Source: Mesorhizobium loti
GTDB lineage: Bacteria > Pseudomonadota > Alphaproteobacteria > Rhizobiales > Rhizobiaceae
Reading direction: 5' to 3'
NCBI RefSeq assembly: GCF_003148495.1
Contig: NZ_QGGH01000008.1
Span: forward strand, 1 to 64,000
Length of the DNA: 64,000 nucleotides
Notes under the pieces: generated by a model
What the model was told of the DNA's origin: nothing
Databases searched by the model: none
What the model saw: only the letters and a program-made list of their open reading frames with translations
Position numbers and translations under genes: made by a program
Shown: one piece after another, positions 21,174 to 32,731 of the stretch
Layout of the letters: each line of letters opens with the position of its first letter
Numbering within the stretch: position 1 is the stretch's first letter

Positions 21174-23066
21174 ATGCTTGGTATATTGAGAAGCGCGGCA
21201 GGCACCTGGGTCGCGAAGGGGCTGTTGGTGTTGCTGGTGCTCAGCTTTTTGGTCTGGGGCATTTCCGGACGGCTGATGGGCGGTTTCGCCGGCCATGATT
21301 CGGTTATAACCGCTGGCGGCACCAAAGTGTCGATCAACGAATACCGTCTCGCCTATGATCGCCAGCTCGCCGTCATGTCGCAGCAGTTCGGCCAGCGTCT
21401 CAGCCACGAACAGGCAAAGGCGCTCGGCGTCGACAACCAGGTGCTGGCTCAGCTCGTTTCGGGCGCCGTTCTCGACGAACAGGCACGCAAACTGGGCCTC
21501 GGACTTTCCAAGGATCGGCTGGCCGAGCTGACGCGCGAAGACCCGGCATTCAAGGGCCCAGGCGGCCAGTTCGACCGCAAAACATTCGAATACATGCTGC
21601 GGCAGGTTGGCATGCGGCCCGAGGACTATCTGAAGAACCGTGCCCAGGTGGCGGTGCGCCAGCAGATCGTCGAAGCGGTCTCGGATGGCCTCAAGACTCC
21701 GGACACTTTCTTCAAGGCGGTTGCGCTCTATCGCGGCGAAGACCGCACCATCGACTATTTGACCCTGCCCAAGGCACTGGTGGAGCCGATCCAGGCGCCT
21801 TCCGACAGCGTGCTTTCAGCCTATTTCGAAGCCAACAAGAAGACATACGCCGCGCCTGAATACCGCAAATTCTCCTATGTCCGCCTCGAACCGGTCGACA
21901 TCATGGATACGACCGCCGTCACCGACAGCCAGGTCAGCGACGACTACAACAAGAACAAGGCGCGCTACACCACGCCGGAACTGCGCACCATCGAGCAGCT
22001 TGTGTTCAAGACGCCGGATGCGGCCAAGGCCGCGCTCGATTCGCTCAAGGCCGGCGCCACCTTCGACAAGCTCGTCACGGCGGAAGGCAAGACCCCGGCC
22101 GATACGCTGCTCGGCACGCTGGCCAAGGATAAGATCGCCGACAAGGCGGTCGCCGACGCGGCCTTCGCGCTCAATGCCAACGAAGTCAGTCAGGTCGTGC
22201 AGGGCGCCTTCGGCCCGGTACTGCTGCGCGTGACCGAAATCAAGCCCGAGGTGGTGAAGCCGCTGACCGAGGTGTCCGACCAGATACGCAAGGACCTGGC
22301 GCTGGGCGAGGCAAGCCGCATCCTTCTGGACGTGCGTGACAGCTATGAAGATACCCGCGCCGCCGGCAGTTCGCTGGCCGACGCCGCCACCAAGCTGAAG
22401 CTGAAGCTCATCACCATCGACGCCATCGATCGCAGCGGATTGCGGCCTGACGCGAGCATCGTCAAGGACCTGCCGCAATCGCCGGAACTGATCAAGGCTG
22501 TCTTCGATGCCGAACCCGGCACGGAGAACGAAGCTTTGACCACGGCAGACAATGGTTTTGTCTTCTACGAAGTGGCTTCCGTCACGCCGGCTCGCGACCG
22601 CACGCTGGACGAGGTTCATCAGAAAGCCGTCGCCGACTGGACGGCAGCTGAGACCACCAAGCGGCTCGCCGCCAAGGCTGACGAGCTCGAAAAGCGGCTC
22701 AAGGCCGGTGCCACGCTCGACGTTATTGCCAGTGAGCTCAAGCTGGAGAAGCAGACCAAGCGCGGCGTCAAGCGCGAGGCCGACGATGTCGATTTCGGCA
22801 AGGAGGGTGCGGCGGCGATGTTCGGCGTCGGCGAAGGCGGCACCGGCCTGATCCCCTCGCCCACCGGCGACGGTCAGGTCCTATACAAGGTCGCCGAAGT
22901 GTTCGAGCCCGCCGGGGCCGATGCCAGCTCGGTGCCGGACGATGCGCAGAAATCCTTCACCTCCGGCATGTCGGATGACCTGCTCGATCAGCTGGTGGCG
23001 CAGTTGCAGACGCAGTACGACGTTCGCATCGACCAGGCCGCCGTTGCCCAAGCCTCGACAAGATGA
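21174..23066 (+). CDS. Membrane-anchored periplasmic foldase (PpiD/SurA-N family peptidylprolyl isomerase)
   Basis: A 630-residue protein with one N-terminal signal anchor ([23 protein letters not shown]), then a SurA-N-type chaperone domain (about 40-170) and a parvulin-like region (about 260-370; [33 protein letters not shown]). The layout is that of PpiD, which assists outer-membrane protein folding at the Sec exit. ATG 21174 is chosen; a much longer frame extends antisense through tpiA and is rejected. The stop overlaps the trpD start by 4 bp (ATGA), a linkage often seen in rhizobia. Confidence 0.88.
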
Positions 23067-24073
23067 GCGCGCTGAAAACCCATATCGCCAAGGTCGCGAC
23101 CGGCAGCGCGCTTTCCTTCGAGGAAGCGCGCGAGGCCTTCGACATCATCATGTCGGGTGACGCCACGCCCGGCCAGATCGGCGGCTTCCTGATGGCGCTG
23201 CGCGTGCGCGGCGAGACGGTGAGCGAGCTTTCCGCCGCCGTCGCCACCATGCGCGCCAGGATGCTGCGTGTCGACGCACCGGACGGCGCCATCGACATCG
23301 TCGGCACGGGCGGCGACAATTCCCACAGTGTCAACATTTCGACGGCATCGGCCTTCGTCATCGCCGGCAGCGGCGTGCCCGTCGCCAAGCATGGCAATCG
23401 CGGTCTGTCCTCGCTGACAGGGTCCGCCGACGTGCTGATTGCGCTTGGCGTCAAGATCGACATCTCGCCCGAATTCATCGGCCGTTGCATCCATGAAGCG
23501 GGCGTCGGCTTCATGTTCGCGCCCGCGCACCACCCGGCAATGAAGTATGTAGGGCCGACCCGAGTCGAGCTCGGCACCCGCACCATCTTCAACCTGCTCG
23601 GGCCTCTCATCAATCCGGCTGGCGTCAAACGGCAGATGGTCGGCGTGTTCCTGCCGGAATGGATCCTGCCGGTGGCCGAGACGCTGAAGGCGCTGGGCGC
23701 CGAGCATGCCTGGGTTGCCCATGGCGACGGCTATGACGAGATCACCACCACCGGCGAGACGCAGGTCGCCGAACTGATCGGCGGCGAGATCCGCAGCTTC
23801 ACGCTAACCCCTGAAGCGGTTGGGCTGGCGCGCCATACCAAGGATGAATTGCGCGGCGGCGACGCGGCCTACAACGCCACGGCATTGCGCGATATGCTGG
23901 GCGGTGCTGCCGGCGCCTATCGAGACACCGTGCTGATGAATGCCGGCGCCGGCCTGGTCGTTGCGGGCAAAGCGACGACGCTTGGTGACGGCATCGCGTT
24001 CGCCGCGCAAGCCATCGACAGCGGCCGGGCCCTGCAGGTGCTCGACCGATTGGTCGAAATTTCGAACGGGTGA
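23063..24073 (+). CDS. trpD: Anthranilate phosphoribosyltransferase
   Basis: Second step of tryptophan synthesis: anthranilate plus PRPP gives phosphoribosyl anthranilate. The 336-residue protein carries the PRPP loop [15 protein letters not shown], the substrate segment [18 protein letters not shown] and the metal-binding [14 protein letters not shown]. It overlaps the upstream foldase gene and is 3 bp from trpC. Its substrate anthranilate is the same compound that the kynurenine genes 5 kb downstream would produce. Confidence 0.97.
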
Positions 24074-24076
24074 ACC

Positions 24077-24889
24077 GTGTCTGACATCCTGCGCAAGATC
24101 GAGGCCTATAAGCGCGACGAGATCGCGGCGGCCAAGGCACGCATGCCGCTGGCCGAGATCAAGGCGCGCGCAAAAGACGCCGATGCACCACGCGGCTTTC
24201 TTGCAGCGCTCGAGGCGAAGCAGAGATCGGGCAGCTTCGCCCTGATCGCCGAAATCAAGAAGGCGAGCCCTTCCAAGGGGTTGATCCGGGCCGATTTCGA
24301 TCCGCCAGCATTGGCGCAGGCCTATGAGAAAGGCGGCGCCGCCTGTCTTTCGGTGCTGACCGACGCGCCGTCTTTCCAGGGCGCGCCGGAGTTTCTCACC
24401 AAGGCGCGAGCCGCCGTCGCCCTGCCCGCACTGCGCAAGGATTTCCTGTTCGATCCGTATCAGGTCTACGAAGCCCGCGCCTGGGGCGCTGATGCCATCC
24501 TGATCATCATGGCGAGCGTTAATGACGCCCTGGCGAGCGAGCTTGAGGCAACGGCATTCGAACTCGGCATGGATGCGCTGATCGAGGTGCATGACGAGGC
24601 CGAGACGCTGCGCGCGGTAAAACTGTCATCGCAGTTGATCGGCATCAACAACCGCAATCTGAGAACATTCGAAACCAGCCTTAAAACGTCCGAGCGGCTG
24701 GCGCCGATGGTGCCGGGCGGCCGCCTGCTGGTCAGCGAGAGCGGTATTTTCAGCCATGACGACTGCCTCAGGATGCAGAAGACCGGCATCGACACCTTCC
24801 TCGTCGGCGAGAGCCTGATGCGGCAACAGGATGTCGCCGCGGCCACGCGCCTGCTGCTGACGGGCAAGGCAGCGGCCGAGGTGGTCTGA
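24077..24889 (+). CDS. trpC: Indole-3-glycerol phosphate synthase
   Basis: Decarboxylating ring closure in tryptophan synthesis. A 270-residue (beta/alpha)8 barrel with [14 protein letters not shown] (catalytic Lys), [29 protein letters not shown] and [14 protein letters not shown]. It is monofunctional, with no TrpF fusion. It starts at GTG 24077 and lies 2 bp before moaC. Confidence 0.97.
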
Positions 24890-24891
24890 CG

Positions 24892-25374
24892 ATGACATCG
24901 GCCCTCACCCATCTCGGCGCGCAGGGCGAGGCCAACATGGTTGATGTCGGCGACAAGGAAGAGACGACGCGCACGGCGATCGCTGAGGGCTTTGTCGCGA
25001 TGCAGCCCGAGACCCTGAAGACGATCCTCGCCGGCAACGCCAAGAAAGGCGATGTGCTCGGCACCGCGCGCATCGCCGGCATCATGGCGGCGAAGAAGAC
25101 GCATGAACTGATCCCGCTCTGCCATCCGCTGCTGCTGACCAAGGTTTCCGTCGACATCGAGCCGGACCATGCTTTGCCCGGCCTGAAGGTCACCGCGCTT
25201 GCGCGTGTCACCGGCAAGACGGGCGTCGAGATGGAAGCTTTGACGGCCGCCTCCGTCGCCTGCCTGACCATCTACGACATGGCCAAGGCGGTGGATCGCG
25301 CCATGACCATTTCCGGCATCCGGCTGGTCGAAAAGACTGGCGGCAAATCTGGCGACTACAAGGCTGGCGCCTGA
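24892..25374 (+). CDS. moaC: Cyclic pyranopterin monophosphate synthase MoaC
   Basis: Early step of molybdenum cofactor synthesis. The 160-residue protein has [26 protein letters not shown] and [25 protein letters not shown], all family signatures with the catalytic Lys and Asp. It ends in the first base of the moeA ATG, so it is tightly coupled to moeA. Confidence 0.97.
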
Positions 25375-26579
25375 TGGCGCTGGTTCCGGTCGCCGAGGCG
25401 CTCGAACGCCTGCTGGAAGGCGCTGCGCCGCTGGCCGGCGAAAGCGTTCCGCTCTTCGAGGCCGTGGATCGTGTGCTGGCGGAACCGGTTATTGCGCTGC
25501 GCACCCAACCGCCCTTCAACGCTTCCGCCATGGACGGCTATGCGGCGCGTGCCGCCGATGTGGCGTCGGTGCCATCGAGACTTTCTGTGATCGGAATGGC
25601 CCCGGCCGGGCGTGGCTTTGACGGCGTGGTCGGCAAGGCACAGGCGGTGCGCATCTTCACCGGCGCGCCGCTTCCCGAAGGCGCCGACACCATCGTCATC
25701 CAGGAAAATGTCAGGGATCTCGGCGGCGGCGACATCGAAGTGACCGAACCGACCGCTGAAGGACGCAACATCCGCCGCATCGGGCTCGATTTTTCAAAGG
25801 GTGACGTGCTGCTGGAAAAAGGCCGCGTGCTCGACCCGGCGGCGCTGTCGCTGGCGGCATCGGCCAACCACCCCCGGGTCGGCGTGGTAAAACGGCCGCT
25901 GGTCGCCATCATCGCCACCGGCGACGAATTGTTGCCGCCCGGCAGCGAACTCGGGCCGGACCAGATCATCTCGTCCAATGCCTATGGCGTTGCCGCCGCC
26001 GCACAGTCGGTTGGCGCCCGCGCGCTCGATCTCGGCATTGCCGCCGATCGCAAGGAGGCCATTGCCGCGCTGATCAGACAAGCGGTCGCGGCCGGCGCGG
26101 ATGTCATCGTGACGCTTGGTGGCGCCTCGGTCGGCGACCACGACCTGATCCATGACGTGCTGACCGGCGAAGGCATGACGCTCGGCTTCTGGAAGATCGC
26201 CATGCGCCCCGGCAAGCCGCTGATGTTCGGCCGCCTCGGCGATATCAGGTGTATCGGCCTGCCCGGCAATCCGGTGGCAAGCTTGGTCTGCTCGCAGCTG
26301 TTCCTGAAGCCGCTGCTGGCGCGGCTCGGCGGCCGCAATCATCGCCAGGACATCCGCCCCGCGCGATTGGGCGCTGCAATGCCGGCTAATGACCTGCGCC
26401 AGGACTATGTGCGGGCCGTGGTCAGGGAAGATGACGGCGCGCTGGTGGCGACGCCGTTCGGCATCCAGGATTCCTCTATGCTGAGAATGCTGGCCGACGC
26501 CAATGGGCTGATCGTCCGGCCGCCGTTTACCCCCGCGGCAGCTGCGGGCGAGGCTTGCAGCGTGCTGATGCTGCGCTGA
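25374..26579 (+). CDS. moeA: Molybdopterin molybdenumtransferase MoeA
   Basis: Inserts molybdenum into molybdopterin-AMP. The 401-residue protein shows PPFNASAMDGYA, VRIFTGAPLPEGADTIVIQEN, the MoCF domain IATGDELLPPG and TLGGASVGDHDLI, and GLPGNPVAS. Last gene of the run foldase-trpD-trpC-moaC-moeA. In related genomes lexA commonly follows; here a tryptophan-degradation block comes first. Confidence 0.97.
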   Translation: MALVPVAEALERLLEGAAPLAGESVPLFEAVDRVLAEPVIALRTQPPFNASAMDGYAARAADVASVPSRLSVIGMAPAGRGFDGVVGKAQAVRIFTGAPLPEGADTIVIQENVRDLGGGDIEVTEPTAEGRNIRRIGLDFSKGDVLLEKGRVLDPAALSLAASANHPRVGVVKRPLVAIIATGDELLPPGSELGPDQIISSNAYGVAAAAQSVGARALDLGIAADRKEAIAALIRQAVAAGADVIVTLGGASVGDHDLIHDVLTGEGMTLGFWKIAMRPGKPLMFGRLGDIRCIGLPGNPVASLVCSQLFLKPLLARLGGRNHRQDIRPARLGAAMPANDLRQDYVRAVVREDDGALVATPFGIQDSSMLRMLADANGLIVRPPFTPAAAAGEACSVLMLR

Positions 26580-26627: not shown

Positions 26628-27458
26628 CTATTCCGAGATCAAGGCCCGGGTCAGCGGATGCGCCGGATCGGCAAGGCCGTCGACAATATCGTAATGATGC
26701 CGGTCGGGCTCGACCACGGTGCTGGTGGTGGCGCCTAGGCCGGTCCAGATATTGGCGAGCAGCGCATTCTGGCGCAGGAATTCGGCGCGCTCGCCGCCAC
26801 CGGCCCAGCAGGTGATGCGGGCACCATCCATCGGCCGCAGCAGCGCCGGGCTTTCAGTCAGCGCCTCCTCTTCGTCGATTGCCAGTGCCTTGTTCATCCC
26901 CGTGCGCATGAGCGGACGCAGGTCGTGGAGGCCTGAAATCGAGACGACATGGCGTATGCGCCGCGCCACATCGGCTGTCAGAGGAGTTGATGTGGTCACC
27001 ATGCGGCTGGCGAGATGTCCGCCGGCCGAATGTCCGGTCAGCATCAGCGGTCCCCCGACCATTGCCGCTGCCTTGCCGATCGCTGTACCGATTTCGCTGA
27101 CGATGCCGGCGATGCGGATGTCCGGGCACTGCGTGTAGGACGGCATCGCCACGGCGAAGCCATTGCCGACCGCGCCGTTGGCGAGGTGCGACCAGGTACT
27201 CTTGTCGGACTCCAGCCAGTAACCGCCATGGATGAACACCACGAGCCCCTTGGGAGCGGCTTTGGGAAGGAAAAGATCGAACCGATTGCGCGGCCCGTCA
27301 CCATAGGCGATGTCGAGCCGTGCCCGGCCCTCTACCGAAAGCGCATTGCGAAACGCTTGCGCCGGTTCCGCCCAGGCGGCTGGCCAGCGGTCGCTGCCGG
27401 CGATGTTCGCACCGTTGGCATAGGCGCTGTCCCAATCGGCAATGTGACGTTCGAACAT
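26628..27458 (-). CDS. Alpha/beta hydrolase, probable kynurenine formamidase (arylformamidase)
   Basis: Would hydrolyse N-formylkynurenine to kynurenine and formate. The 276-residue protein has HGGYW (the HGGxW motif of alpha/beta-type kynurenine formamidases), the nucleophile Ser in LTGHSAGGHLASRM and the C-terminal His in DRHHYDIVDGL. The context is strong: tryptophan 2,3-dioxygenase and kynureninase are on the opposite strand just beyond. It is not the metal-dependent KynB fold. ATG 27458 is preferred, with GGGAGGG just upstream; GTG 27464 would add two residues. Confidence 0.82.
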   Translation of the reverse strand: MFERHIADWDSAYANGANIAGSDRWPAAWAEPAQAFRNALSVEGRARLDIAYGDGPRNRFDLFLPKAAPKGLVVFIHGGYWLESDKSTWSHLANGAVGNGFAVAMPSYTQCPDIRIAGIVSEIGTAIGKAAAMVGGPLMLTGHSAGGHLASRMVTTSTPLTADVARRIRHVVSISGLHDLRPLMRTGMNKALAIDEEEALTESPALLRPMDGARITCWAGGGERAEFLRQNALLANIWTGLGATTSTVVEPDRHHYDIVDGLADPAHPLTRALISE

Positions 27459-27768
27459 CGGCACCCTCCCCCGGAATGGCTCGTTTCTGCGCTAGCAATG
27501 GCCACCGCCATGCCATGCGTCAATGCTCCAGACCAAAAACATTTTAGGCTTGAAACAAATTTCGACTGGTGCGATCCTGCCCTGACGAACAGCCGACAAT
27601 GGGAGGTCTGCTGTGCTGCCCAAAACCTGCAGATGTGCACTCTTTCTGGTGGCATCCCGAGCAGGGGCAACGGCGGCACGGAGCCTCCTCAAAAGCAGGA
27701 CCTTTAGATCCACCACATCCGGCCAGGCGCCTCGGCACTGGCCGTCCAGCAGATGGGATAGCGGCGAC
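27459..27768. other. Divergent promoter region of the tryptophan-degradation block
   Basis: 310 bp between the formamidase-like gene and the CoA ligase gene. Frames across it lack homologous-looking protein. No operator dyad or Lrp/AsnC (KynR-type) regulator gene is apparent, so how the block is induced is not visible. Confidence 0.5.
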
Positions 27769-29394
27769 ATGCTTGGGCCTTCAGCGCATATCGACACGTT
27801 CACGCGCGATCACCTGCCGCCGCCGGAGCAATGGCCCGATATCCTGCTCGATGGCTTTGACTATCCCGAACGCCTCAACGCCGGCGTCGAACTGACCGAC
27901 AGGCTGGTCGAGAAAGGCCTGGGCGACCACACCGCGCTGATCGGCAATGGCCGCCGCCGCACCTACAAGGAACTGTCCGACTGGACGAACAGGCTGGCCC
28001 ACGCACTGGTCGAGAATTATGGCGTCAAGCCGGGCAACCGGGTGCTGATCCGCTCGGCCAACAACCCCGCCATGGTCGCCTGCTGGCTGGCTGCCACCAA
28101 GGTCGGCGCCGTGGTCGTCAACACTATGCCGATGCTACGCGCCGGCGAACTCGCCAAGATCGTCGACAAGGCGGAGATCACCGTCGCGCTGTGCGACACC
28201 AGGCTGATGGACGAGATGACCGCCTGCGCCAAGGACAGCGTATTCCTCAAACAGGTCATAGGCTTCGACGGCACCGCCAACCATGATGCCGAACTCGATC
28301 GTGCCGCGCTCGACAAGCCGGTGACATTCACTTCCGTCAACACAGGCCGCGACGACGTCGCCTTGCTCGGCTTCACCTCGGGCACGACAGGCGTGCCGAA
28401 GGCGACGATGCATTTCCACCGCGACCTCCTGATCATCGCCGACGCCTACGCCCGCGAGATCCTCAAGGTGACGCCGGACGACATCTTTGTCGGCTCGCCG
28501 CCGCTGGCCTTCACCTTCGGCCTTGGCGGGCTCGCCATCTTCCCGCTGCGCTTCGGTGCTGCGGCAACGCTGCTGGAGCAGGCGACGCCGCCCAACATGA
28601 TCCACATCATCGAAACCTACAAAGCGACGATCTCCTTCACCGCGCCGACCGCCTACCGCGCCATGTTGAAGGCCATGGATGAAGGAGCCGACCTGTCGTC
28701 GCTGCGCGTCGCCGTTTCGGCCGGCGAAACCTTGCCCGCTCCGGTTTTCGAGGAGTGGACGCAAAAGACCGGCAAGCCGATCCTCGACGGCATCGGCGCC
28801 ACCGAAATGCTGCACATCTTCATCTCCAACCGCTTTGACGACATGAAGCCCGCGTCGACCGGCAAGCCGGTGGGCGGCTATGAGGCGCGCATCGTCGATG
28901 ACGAGATGCGCGAGGTGCCGCGCGGCACAACCGGCAGGCTGGCGGTGCGCGGCCCGACCGGCTGCCGCTACATGGCCGACAACAGGCAGAAGGAATACGT
29001 CCGCGACGGCTGGAACCTCACCGGCGACACCTTCACGCAGGACAAAGACGGGTTCTTCCATTTCGCCGCGCGCTCCGACGACATGATCGTCAGCGCCGGC
29101 TACAACATCGCCGGCCCCGAGGTCGAGGCAGCACTGCTGTCGCATCCCGACGTCGCCGAATGCGCGGTGATCGGCGCAGACGATGCCGAACGCGGCCAGA
29201 TCGTCGAGGCGCATGTCGTGCTGGCGCAGGGCGTGGCGCCTGACGCGTTGACCACCAAGCGCCTGCAGGACCACGTCAAGGCAACGATCGCGCCCTACAA
29301 ATACCCGCGATCGGTGAAATTCATCGCCGCTCTGCCCAAGACCCAGACCGGCAAGATCCAGCGCTTCCGGCTGCGCACGGAGAAAATCAATTGA
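27769..29394 (+). CDS. 2-aminobenzoate (anthranilate)-CoA ligase
   Basis: Activates anthranilate with ATP and CoA to anthraniloyl-CoA. The 541-residue ANL-superfamily enzyme shows the phosphate loop [17 protein letters not shown], the A5 block [31 protein letters not shown] (hinge) and the C-terminal catalytic Lys in [10 protein letters not shown]. The opening [31 protein letters not shown] resembles AbmG-type 2-aminobenzoate-CoA ligases. ATG 27769 is preferred; the frame extends to 27613 without supporting features. The stop overlaps the next gene's TTG start, so it is coupled to tryptophan dioxygenase. Other aryl acids such as benzoate remain possible. Confidence 0.85.
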
Positions 29395-30227
29395 GCGAGC
29401 CATACGATCCGGCGTCCGAAGGCGCACAGATGTCGTTCAAGGAGCGCATGTCCTACAGCGACTACCTGCACCTTGAGAAAGTGCTGGAGGCCCAGACGCC
29501 GCTGTCGTCGGCGCACGACGAGATGCTGTTCATTATCCAGCATCAAACCTCCGAACTGTGGATGAAGCTCGCTTTGCACGAGATTGGCGCTGCGATCCGT
29601 TCTATCCGCGCCGACCGGCTCGAGCCGAGCTTCAAGATGCTGTCGCGCGTCGCCCGCATCTTCGAGCAGTTGAACAACGCCTGGGACGTGCTGCGGACGA
29701 TGACCCCCAGCGAATACACCGAGTTCCGCGACGCGCTCGGCCAGTCCTCGGGTTTTCAGTCCTGGCAGTATCGCGCCATCGAGTTCATGGCCGGCAACCG
29801 CAACCTCGCCATGCTCGGGCCGCACAAGCACCGGCCTGACCTCAGCGGAAAGCTGGAGGCGATCCTGGCCGAGCCATCGCTCTACGACGAAGCGCTGCTG
29901 CTTCTGGCGCGCAACGGATTCGACATCGGCACTGATGCCAGGCGCACGGACTGGCGTGAAACGCGAACCGAAAATGAAGAGGTTCTGGTCGCCTGGCAGA
30001 CCATTTACCGTGATCCGCAGCGTTACTGGATGTTCTACGAACTGGCCGAGAAGCTGGTCGACTTCGAGGACTATTTCCGCCGCTGGCGCTTCAACCACGT
30101 CACCACGGTCGAGCGCATCATCGGTCTGAAACGCGGCACCGGCGGCACGTCGGGTGCTTCGTATCTCAAGAAGATGCTCGAGGTCGTGCTGTTCCCGGAG
30201 CTGTGGACGGTCCGCACCCGGCTCTGA
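29391..30227 (+). CDS. kynA: Tryptophan 2,3-dioxygenase
   Basis: Heme enzyme that opens the indole ring of tryptophan to N-formylkynurenine. The 278-residue protein has [14 protein letters not shown] (distal His), [13 protein letters not shown], the proximal heme His in [16 protein letters not shown] and the substrate loop [11 protein letters not shown]. It starts at TTG 29391 within the ligase stop (TTGA), so the ligase and dioxygenase are translationally coupled. Confidence 0.95.
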
Positions 30228-30308
30228 CATCATCGAAATGAAAACAAGCTCACTGAGGGGACGCTCTGTGGCGGAAAACCTTCGCGAACAACCGAGGACT
30301 GACCGACC

Positions 30309-31556
30309 ATGAGTGGAATTCCTGATCTCGCTGCAATCGAAGCGATGGATGCCACGGATCCGCTGCGTGCCATGCGCGATCGTTTCATCCTGCCGGAAGG
30401 CGTGATCTATCTCGACGGCAATTCACTTGGGGCAGCGTCGCATGCCGTTTTCGGCGAGCTGCAGCAGGCGGCGACCCAGGAATGGGCCCAGGGTCTCATC
30501 CGGGCCTGGAATACAGCCGGATGGTTCGAGATGCCGATCGAACTCGGTGACCAGCTCGGGCGCCTGATAGGAGCCGGGGCCGGCCAGACCGTCGTCTGCG
30601 ACACGACGTCGACCAACATCTACAAGGTGCTGCATGCGGCGCTGGAGATGCGGCCCGGCCGGTTGGCCATCGTCGCCGAGGGCGACAGTTTTCCCACCGA
30701 CCTGTACGTCGCCGAAGGCGTGGCCTCGACCCGGGATGGCGTCCTGCTGCGCCTCGCGGGCGTCGACGCGCCAACCATCGAAGAACTGATCGACGAAAGC
30801 GTCGCGGTGGTGCTGGTCAACCACGTCAATTACAAATCGGGTGAACTGCGCGACATGGCGGCGCTGACGCGCAAGGCTCATGCGGCCGGAGCGCTGGTCG
30901 TCTGGGATCTATGCCACACCGCCGGCGCTCTGCCGGTCGAGCTCGATCACGCAAATGCCGACTTCGCCATCGGCTGCACCTACAAGTACCTCAACGGCGG
31001 TCCGGGCGCGCCGGCCTTCATCTATGCCGCCCGGCGCCACCACGGCGAGATCAGCCAGCCACTCAGCGGCTGGTGGGGGCATGCGCGGCCCTTTGCCTTC
31101 GAACAGGGTTACGTGGCCGGCACCGGTATCCGCCGCTTTCTGTGCGGCACGCAGCCGGTCCTGTCGATGCGGGCGCTCAAGGGTGCGCTTGCCATCTGGA
31201 ACGACGTCGACATGGCGGCATTGCGAAAGAAAAGCGTCGCGCTGACCGAACTGTTCATCCAGCTCGTCGAAGCAAAGTGCGGCGCCTATGGTCTCACGCT
31301 GGAGACCACCCGCGACGCGACCAGCCGCGGCAGCCAGGTGTCGTTCCTTCACGATCATGGCTATCAAATCATGCGGGCGCTGATCGAGCGTGGCGTGATC
31401 GGTGATTTCCGCGCGCCATCGACCATCCGTTTCGGCTTCACGCCGCTCTATGTCGGCTACAAGGATGTGTGGCTGGCGGTCGAGGTGCTGGAAGACATTC
31501 TGCGCACGGGTGCATGGAAGGACCAGCGTTTCGCCGCCAAGGAGGCCGTTACCTAA
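30309..31556 (+). CDS. kynU: Kynureninase
   Basis: PLP enzyme that cleaves kynurenine to anthranilate and alanine. The 415-residue protein has IYLDGNSLGAAS, the PLP Asp in VWDLCHTAGALPVEL, the Schiff-base Lys in GCTYKYLNGGPGAPAF and the substrate-binding GWWGHARPFAF. It lies 81 bp after kynA on the same strand, with GAGGA about 11 bp before the ATG. It completes tryptophan to anthranilate in this block. Confidence 0.96.
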   Translation: MSGIPDLAAIEAMDATDPLRAMRDRFILPEGVIYLDGNSLGAASHAVFGELQQAATQEWAQGLIRAWNTAGWFEMPIELGDQLGRLIGAGAGQTVVCDTTSTNIYKVLHAALEMRPGRLAIVAEGDSFPTDLYVAEGVASTRDGVLLRLAGVDAPTIEELIDESVAVVLVNHVNYKSGELRDMAALTRKAHAAGALVVWDLCHTAGALPVELDHANADFAIGCTYKYLNGGPGAPAFIYAARRHHGEISQPLSGWWGHARPFAFEQGYVAGTGIRRFLCGTQPVLSMRALKGALAIWNDVDMAALRKKSVALTELFIQLVEAKCGAYGLTLETTRDATSRGSQVSFLHDHGYQIMRALIERGVIGDFRAPSTIRFGFTPLYVGYKDVWLAVEVLEDILRTGAWKDQRFAAKEAVT

Positions 31557-31993
31557 CGCAGCCGTCTCGACGATCTGTTGTCATCGGCTCTCCCCTTGGT
31601 CGGATGACGAAGAGACGAATTTCCAGCTCGCACATGCGTTCGTTGCTGGTGGCCAGCGCAGGCTACAATAATTAACCAAGGTTGGCGTTTTGGCTTCGTT
31701 TCGTTCACGGCAAACGAAAGCTGGAAAGCCCACCGTCGAGGGGCCTGTCGGCAGCCATGCCAGGCCTGATCTCGGGATGGGCCACAGGCTATTAACCATA
31801 ACAATTTCAATGTCGGAAAGCGCACTGCGACGGCATGCAGGCGTCGACGAGATCCGCTTGCAACCGCGGAATAATTTCCGCCACCTTAACAAATTCATTA
31901 AACTTTAAACGGTTGCAGAACACAACTGGAACAGATAGTGTTTGTTCTGGGTTTGTTTTTCTGATTCTGGTTTCAGGTACCCTGGGGGCCGCC
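31557..31993. other. Long intergenic region holding the lexA promoter
   Basis: 437 bp with no convincing gene. It contains an inverted repeat TTTCGTT-N7-AACGAAA (31699-31719), a stem GCGGAA-TAAT-TTCCGC around 31866-31881, an A/T-rich stretch at 31880-31910, and the LexA box at 31918-31932. Frames reading through to lexA from 31835 are non-coding extensions. Confidence 0.6.
31918..31932. promoter_or_regulatory. LexA (SOS) box upstream of lexA
   Basis: GAACACAACTGGAAC is an exact GAAC-N7-GAAC, the reverse complement of the alphaproteobacterial SOS box GTTC-N7-GTTC. A second, imperfect half-match GTTC-N7-GTTT follows at 31944-31958. Their location 36-76 bp before the lexA ATG indicates autorepression. 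Confidence 0.88.
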
Positions 31994-32731
31994 ATGCTGA
32001 CGCGCAAGCAACACGAACTGTTGATGTTCATCCATGAACGCCTGAAGGAAAGCGGCATTCCGCCATCCTTCGATGAGATGAAGGAGGCGCTCGATCTTGC
32101 CTCCAAATCCGGGATTCACCGGCTGATCACGGCACTGGAGGAGCGCGGCTTCATTCGCCGGCTGCCCAACCGGGCACGCGCGCTGGAAGTGCTGCGGCTG
32201 CCGGATTCGATCGCGCCCGGCCTCAACGCGGCAAAAAAATTCTCGCCAAGCGTCATCCAGGGCAGTCTTGGTCAAGGCGGCCTTGGCCGGCAGATCAAGC
32301 CGGCGCTTTCGCGGATGTCTTCGGCCGGCAATGACGACGACGTGGTCTCCGCGGTGTCGATCCCGGTGATGGGCCGCATCGCTGCCGGTGTGCCGATCGA
32401 CGCCATTCAGCATCAGACGCATTCGATCTCGGTGCCGCCGGACATGATCATGGGCGGCGAGCACTATGCGCTGGAGGTCAAGGGCGACTCGATGATCGAA
32501 GCCGGCATTTTCGACGGCGACACCGTCATCATCCGCAATGCCGACACGGCGAGCCCCGGCGAAATCATCGTGGCGCTGGTCGATGAAGAGGAAGCGACGC
32601 TGAAGCGGTTCCGCCGCAAGGGCGCCTCGATTGCTCTCGAAGCCGCCAATCCGGCCTATGAAACCCGTATTTTCGGGCCGGACAGGGTCAAGGTGCAAGG
32701 CAAGCTCGTCGGCCTGATCCGACGCTACTGA
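31994..32731 (+). CDS. lexA: LexA repressor
   Basis: SOS-response repressor that self-cleaves with RecA. The 245-residue protein begins [21 protein letters not shown], followed by the winged-helix domain. The Ala-Gly cleavage site lies in [11 protein letters not shown]; the catalytic Ser is in [11 protein letters not shown] and the Lys in [11 protein letters not shown]. The linker (about 80-125) is longer than in E. coli LexA, as usual in alphaproteobacteria. Its end overlaps the convergent comEC-like gene by 7 bp. Confidence 0.97.

Follow-up and report, generated by a model that had tools for sequence, protein, structure and literature searches.

A tryptophan-to-anthraniloyl-CoA block between moeA and lexA of Mesorhizobium loti and its probable link, through a shared candidate operator, to an unlinked monooxygenase cluster

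In a 64,000-nucleotide stretch of the Mesorhizobium loti genome (the window: positions 1 to 64,000 of contig NZ_QGGH01000008.1, which is contig C8 of the 7.45-Mb, 52-contig assembly denoted G000), a block of four genes that would convert tryptophan to anthraniloyl-CoA lies between moeA and lexA. The immediate upstream neighbours are trpD, trpC, moaC and moeA, and the first-pass annotation of the window anticipated a futile cycle with trpD. The locus raises the question of where the anthraniloyl-CoA goes and how the block is controlled. The comparisons presented here make it likely that a single tryptophan-catabolic pathway is split over two loci, joined by a shared operator that is probably bound by a MarR family protein encoded in the second locus. 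The block is laid out as hydrolase (minus strand) followed by ligase-kynA-kynU (plus strand), positions 26628-31556, with the following features:

26628..27458, minus strand: alpha/beta hydrolase (HYD), candidate N-formylkynurenine formamidase (NF058665, 360.5 bits, cut-off 320)
27543..27554, plus strand: candidate operator TTTAGGCTTGAA, a near-palindrome in the divergent HYD/ligase promoter and one of the two exact occurrences of TTTARGCTTGAA in the genome
27550..27578, plus strand: putative promoter TTGAAA-N17-GATCCT, read from the sequence and overlapped by the operator
27769..29394, plus strand: CoA ligase (LIG), probable anthranilate (2-aminobenzoate)-CoA ligase, 541 amino acids (PF00501/PF13193; TIGR02262, 372.8 bits)
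29391..30227, plus strand: kynA, tryptophan 2,3-dioxygenase (TIGR03036, 429 bits, above the cut-off; 2nox, 2.8e-106)
30309..31556, plus strand: kynU, kynureninase (TIGR01814, 366 bits, above the cut-off; 1qz9, 1.1e-136)

All four genes lie where the first-pass annotation placed them, and the gene families support its interpretation of the block as a path from tryptophan to anthraniloyl-CoA. In the scheme proposed here, the block would be the upper half of aerobic tryptophan degradation: KynA would open the indole ring, the alpha/beta hydrolase would remove the formyl group, KynU would release anthranilate, and the ligase would convert it to anthraniloyl-CoA. The lower half would be an unlinked cluster on contig C4, in which a monooxygenase/reductase (MONO) is predicted to hydroxylate and reduce the ring, with enzymes of the beta-oxidation type completing the breakdown. 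Both halves would be switched together by the near-palindromic operator TTTARGCTTGAA, which covers the -35 region at each of the two promoters and is probably bound by the MarR protein of the cluster, with an aromatic acid or a CoA thioester as the likely inducer. The upper half, of the HYD|LIG-kynA-ABC-kynU type, would have entered the moeA-lexA interval before the main clade of the genus diversified and would later have been trimmed repeatedly. What the comparisons establish is the gene families, their positions, the distribution of the element and the trees; the substrates, the binding protein, the inducer and the directions of regulation and of gene gain and loss belong to the interpretation.

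The first-pass annotation suggested a search elsewhere for a 2-aminobenzoyl-CoA monooxygenase. In the analysed genome, one protein scores above the cut-off of NF006101 (C4:334682-336964, 1262 bits; PF01494 and PF00724). It combines an FAD monooxygenase and an old-yellow-enzyme reductase in one protein and is a homologue of 2-aminobenzoyl-CoA monooxygenase/reductase. Its gene heads the order MONO-SDR-MarR-ECH-ACAD-RidA (ECH, enoyl-CoA hydratase; ACAD, acyl-CoA dehydrogenase), which contains no ligase, and shares its promoter element with the ligase gene of the block.

This element was derived from an alignment of upstream regions within the genus; at the MONO gene, too, it overlaps a promoter-like sequence, TTGAAA-N17-GATACT. 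The analysed genome contains two exact copies of TTTARGCTTGAA, one before the ligase gene and one before MONO. Only exact copies were counted genome-wide because tolerance of one mismatch yielded 20 matches, compared with 22 for a reversed control. The genus was represented by 99 evenly drawn genomes, including the analysed one, in each of which moeA, lexA, the ligase, kynA and kynU were located. TTTARGCTTGAA is present without mismatch in all 41 upstream regions of block ligases (G073 left out) and in 53 of 61 MONO upstream regions, some of which represent the same place twice; another seven have one mismatch, and the sole miss (L004) belongs to an old-yellow-enzyme homologue far below the family cut-off. 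Exact copies were sought genome-wide in 64 chosen congeners. The 25 searched genomes with a ligase-containing block (from 41 besides the analysed one) have 25 sites at the ligase, 25 at MONO and two stray copies. All 19 genomes with only HYD and kynU at the moeA-lexA site were included, with no exact site at a ligase and four stray copies; ten of the 25 block-less genomes that possess MONO have three stray copies besides those at MONO; and ten of the 13 block-less genomes lacking MONO have none at these genes and four stray copies.

From at least 577 relatives, the best 80 named loci were surveyed, with incomplete flanks in some, and the 68 loci not titled Mesorhizobium (12 being excluded) were used for the element. 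With at most one mismatch, it lies upstream of LIG, MONO or HYD in 41 of these 68 loci (exact in 17). The reversed motif does so in none, and 100 permuted motifs average 0.08 loci and never exceed 2. By gene, at the same tolerance, the element is found at LIG in 9/68, at MONO in 26/45 and at HYD in 9/33; a separate ligase site is not expected in many of these loci because the ligase gene sits inside the MONO operon. In Ruegeria pomeroyi, the element is located between HYD-kynA and MONO and is matched in both directions, by one exact copy and one with a mismatch.

It appears unlikely that the shared 12-mer is a mere promoter feature and not the site of a regulator. It does include the -35-like TTGAAA, with GATACT or GATCCT 17 bp away at the MONO and ligase promoters, but its near-palindromic conservation extends upstream of the -35 region, the two exact copies are the only ones in 7.45 Mb, and the element tracks these genes across genera. 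The occurrence of one element before both genes, with few copies in the rest of the genome, is the pattern of a MarR-operator regulon. The operator is probably bound by the MarR protein encoded next to MONO on contig C4, and the shared element is a candidate for the control over the anticipated futile cycle with trpD. Another inverted repeat, the perfect palindrome TTTAAGCTTAAA, was noticed near the MONO cluster, before an aminotransferase gene (L041:2957); it occurs in 7 of 16 cluster-B loci, and three of the nine loci without it (L128, L129 and L131) end at a contig border.

The MONO cluster itself bears on whether the two loci belong together. In the MONO tree, the protein of the analysed genome groups (support 100) with those of L312 and L348, both titled Mesorhizobium, which have a single cluster of the form MONO-SDR-MarR-ECH-ACAD-cupin-LIG-kynU-kynA-RidA. 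Of the stretches obtained from 15 other congeners, 12 reached RidA, and all 12 show the ligase-free cluster; in Phyllobacterium pT1293b, the order is the same except that a ligase separates ACAD from RidA, and complete single-locus versions are present in Thalassospira (L297), Nitratireductor (L303) and Aquamicrobium (L341). The trees suggest a complete cluster as the ancestor of the lower half, with later loss of LIG-kynU-kynA. MONO is present in all 61 block genomes (G044 and G067 have partial copies, the former scoring under the family cut-off) and in all 54 ligase-bearing genomes, and none of the 13 genomes lacking MONO carries the block. The co-occurrence of ligase and MONO gives a Fisher p of 1.2e-5 in a test that treats related genomes as independent. 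A distant MONO clade (group A) is found in nine deep congeners and G076. Its distance from the ligase is less than 12 kb in six of these ten genomes, roughly 30 kb in two and 173 kb in another; in the last, MONO and the ligase are on different contigs.

Several observations weigh against the joining of the two loci in one regulated pathway. Of the 45 genomes without a ligase orthologue, 32 possess MONO all the same, and there the lower cluster must be fed by something else or serve a different role. NF006101 is named for salicylyl-CoA 5-hydroxylase, and sequence therefore leaves the substrate of MONO open. On the tree, the block-MONO association comes down to five independent pairs, of which about two agree and none disagrees, too few for significance; with the genomes being related and this test non-significant, co-occurrence was dropped as proof. 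The 19 HYD-kynU genomes hold these two genes without kynA, a ligase, or the element upstream of either gene, and an exact copy at MONO is found in only 13 of these 19 and in five of the ten searched block-less genomes with MONO. Among other genera, 27 of the 68 loci lack the element at LIG, MONO and HYD, and it was not found near the G090 ligase (up to one mismatch in both cases). Finally, the motif came from comparing these very promoters, so its co-presence in the analysed genome is not independent evidence; that role falls to the genome-wide count and the other genera.

Some of these points would fit a pair of separate pathways, with anthraniloyl-CoA destined for another fate and the MONO cluster acting on, for example, salicylyl-CoA: the family name, the many ligase-less genomes with MONO and the distinct group-A clade, which in most of its genomes lies close to a ligase. 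This alternative is improbable given that the shared element is found at both loci in 25 of 25 genomes searched and that the closest relatives of the MONO cluster contain LIG-kynU-kynA. A single pathway with two addresses is the preferred explanation.

The substrate of the ligase, which we infer to be anthranilate, does not follow from an equivalog model: the TIGR02262 score is slightly below the cut-off of 375.25 bits, and no such model sets the substrate. On these grounds the ligase could act on a different aromatic acid, with its position beside kynA and kynU being incidental. This is very unlikely, considering that its closest solved relative is the anthranilate-CoA ligase 4wv3 (E 3e-88), ahead of benzoate-CoA ligases, and that 40 of the best 80 named loci have a kynA match, and 37 a kynU match, no more than 10 kb from the ligase. 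At the same distance, MONO was matched in 50 of these loci and HYD in 43. The ligase most likely starts at ATG 27769: the frame has its first GTG at 27613, but the stretch from that GTG is poorly conserved whereas ATGCTTGGGCC is conserved. The ligase stop codon overlaps a possible TTG start of kynA, for which ATG 29430 is the other candidate, and 81 bases then separate kynA from kynU.

The first-pass annotation described the hydrolase as formamidase-like. The protein is an alpha/beta hydrolase, with a score above the NF058665 cut-off and with HGG, GHSAGGH and His255 invariant in 19 aligned sequences, and is not the usual bacterial KynB. Its profile matches the Drosophila kynurenine formamidase 4e11 at 2.6e-27, but 2pbl (a putative esterase) and 9n8r (a lipase) score better. 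A canonical KynB elsewhere in the genome is ruled out: the cyclase-type formamidase family TIGR03035 has no match at E <= 1e-30 in any of the 99 congeners, the analysed genome included. With no KynB of the usual family found in these genomes and HYD travelling with the pathway genes, HYD is the candidate formamidase. An alternative HYD start is possible at GTG 27464.

The site that the block occupies is delimited by the following features:

23063..24889, plus strand: trpD and trpC, biosynthetic neighbours that use anthranilate
25374..26579, plus strand: moeA, left flank of the insertion site
31918..31932, plus strand: LexA (SOS) box GAACACAACTGGAAC, beyond the block in the promoter of lexA
31994..32731, plus strand: lexA, bounding the insertion site on the right (start placed at 31994)

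The consensus of the LexA box is GTTC-N7-GTTC or GAAC-N7-GAAC, and the box listed above is the sole match to either form within the window. It is unchanged in the two block-less congener loci compared (L142 and L143); the lexA promoter is left intact by the block, as judged from these sequences. There is no integrase or transposase gene among the four genes that fill the block; other listed open reading frames of at least 120 amino acids overlap these four, and the search did not extend to overlapping or shorter reading frames or attachment repeats.

The first-pass annotation took the block to be a probable insertion, and the survey of moeA-lexA content agrees in that the block is not common to all relatives. 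The site was obtained for all 99 congeners, incompletely in G014, G073 and G096 because of contig breaks; the block is present, whole or in part, in 61, is missing in 37, and could not be scored in one (G096). In 33 of the 37 block-less genomes, the moeA-lexA gap measures 95-129 bases, and four (G053, G085, G005 and G054) have other content of 0.7-3.1 kb. The occupied sites include HYD-kynU only (19 genomes), HYD-LIG-kynU (5), HYD-LIG-kynA-kynU (21, with kynU forward in 12 and convergent in 9, G073 being placed by hand among the latter) and the last set plus ABC permease genes (16). The orientation of kynU varies, being forward after kynA in those 12 genomes and convergent in the remaining ligase blocks; other forward copies are 92-97% identical to the kynU of the window, and the convergent copies read are 81-87% identical. 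In the 19 HYD-kynU congeners (L102-L104 and 16 further loci), neither kynA (TIGR03036) nor a ligase orthologue was found in the genome. A second kynU-kynA pair is located off the block in G059 (C73:60676-62774), with one in-frame stop in the kynU match. Among named loci, six bear the block, all titled Mesorhizobium.

The age of the block can be approached through a FastTree phylogeny of the flanking MoaC, MoeA and LexA, in which many inner branches are weak. All 61 carriers belong to a main clade of 88 genomes (support 96), and of the 11 deeper congeners ten lack the block and one could not be scored. At least seven changes between block and no block are required, a count that alone does not separate gain from loss. 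In the ligase tree, the block ligases form one clade with G087 basal, matching the flank tree. The block looks to have been gained once, by the common ancestor of that clade of 88, and then to have been trimmed repeatedly, a direction that we infer from these trees. A recent insertion is ruled out, the block being common to the 88-genome clade and eroded in many members. Because the nearest non-block ligases are those of Aminobacter, Ensifer, Rhizobium and deep congeners, the block may have come from outside the genus or moved within it; the HYD|LIG-kynA-ABC-kynU arrangement is now found in Aminobacter, Ensifer plasmids and deep congeners. The ligase gene has apparently also left the block, as the ligases of a Mesorhizobium amorphae plasmid and of G076 are nested inside the chromosomal block clade. 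In these two loci (L124, plasmid pM0123d, and L115, respectively), HYD|LIG is followed by MarR, group-A MONO, RidA, 3-hydroxyacyl-CoA dehydrogenase and thiolase, and the genes from MarR to thiolase are 97-100% identical. In another locus (L120, in G090), HYD|LIG precedes a five-gene ABC transporter of the branched-chain type, with no kynA nearby and no operator; L291 (titled Rhizobium), L293 and L323 (Neorhizobium) and L351 (Xaviernesmea) are arranged similarly.

The moeA region was also inspected in 20 outgroup genomes (19 genera), taken from 110 genomes outside the genus with a match. In 10 of these, lexA follows moeA at 96-353 bases, without the block, and in one at 1.5 kb; in 7 of the 20, lexA was not found in the stretch examined after moeA, one such stretch being short and two that were extended (L250 and L251) still having none. 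Two outgroup genomes of one genus (g8) have a catabolic cluster after moeA. In G209, two overlapping stretches give moeA-MONO-SDR-MarR-ECH-ACAD-LIG-RidA-kynA-lexA on one strand, with kynA ending about 130 bases before lexA and no HYD or kynU match in these stretches. G105 has the identical gene set from moeA to kynA, followed by other genes, with no lexA in the 14 kb examined past kynA. The ligases of both group with Hoeflea, and common ancestry with the moeA-lexA occupants of Mesorhizobium was rejected (log-likelihood 96.6 lower, p-AU 2.75e-6, from 30 chosen ligases and a quick LG+G4 tree, with the grouping picked after an earlier ligase tree had been viewed). That the block is ancestral at the site and was lost from the empty genomes is very unlikely, since, even though losses seem to occur (e.g., in G008 and G082 beside G018) and G209 of another genus holds such genes there, the site is free of the block in ten of the deep congeners and in 10 of the 20 outgroup genomes, and the G209 and G105 ligases are not sister to those of the block.

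By these comparisons, the second genus gained kynA and an anthraniloyl-CoA cluster at the moeA-lexA site independently. Two arrivals at one gap may reflect coincidence, a gap prone to recombination, or selection for nearness to trpDC. A bolder idea, which appears improbable, is that catabolism around anthranilate is preferentially sited in this gap next to trpDC, where the two genera independently placed unrelated versions. If so, a location close to trpDC or the SOS repressor would have been selected, and the anthranilate node would act as a switch, dependent on gene position, between synthesis and breakdown of tryptophan.

Altogether, a pathway that looked incomplete would now be closed, and a testable regulator-operator pair can be named for a route whose control has been little described. 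The system would be a case of one pathway whose halves differ in type and address and share one switch, and the congeners form a graded series, with none, two, three, and four or more genes, in which the shrinkage of the block can be followed. Members of the clade would use tryptophan or kynurenines through the CoA-ligase route and not through anthranilate dioxygenase, which is plausible around roots. The split, the operator and the reuse of the site seem to be new, and the chemistry is known; no published account of the split pathway, the operator or the insertion site was found among titles and abstract openings, with few subscription journals covered.

The anthranilate branch of the bacterial kynurenine pathway is kynA-kynB-kynU; it shares kynA and kynU with the block, whereas here the alpha/beta hydrolase apparently replaces KynB and a CoA ligase provides the next step. 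The ligase-monooxygenase route from anthranilate is already known (PMC4539516, PMC3534580). The aerobic 2-aminobenzoyl-CoA pathway of Azoarcus evansii begins with a ligase followed by a monooxygenase/reductase, and the likeness extends to the AMP-forming ligase, the flavoenzyme and the steps of the beta-oxidation type (PMC4539516); here, too, SDR, ECH, ACAD and RidA follow MONO. The Azoarcus genes are located on a small plasmid, in contrast to the two unlinked loci, one beside kynurenine genes, described here (PMC4539516). In Cupriavidus metallidurans CH34, abm and kyn genes are annotated together, so that both halves are in one genome, as here; the portion of that report available describes neither linkage nor shared regulation, and the strain did not grow on anthranilate (PMC8879955). 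A quinaldine-degrading system has the same two enzyme types and a measured ligase activity, with anthranilate derived from quinaldine, unlike here. Its host is an actinobacterium. Closest in gene content are the one-locus clusters of Thalassospira (L297), Nitratireductor (L303) and the Ruegeria pomeroyi DSS-3 megaplasmid (L123, with no kynU in the stretch examined), which contain the same gene types and, in L297 and L123 but not L303, a match to the motif; all or most of their genes are together, whereas M. loti has two halves of unlike type at separate places.

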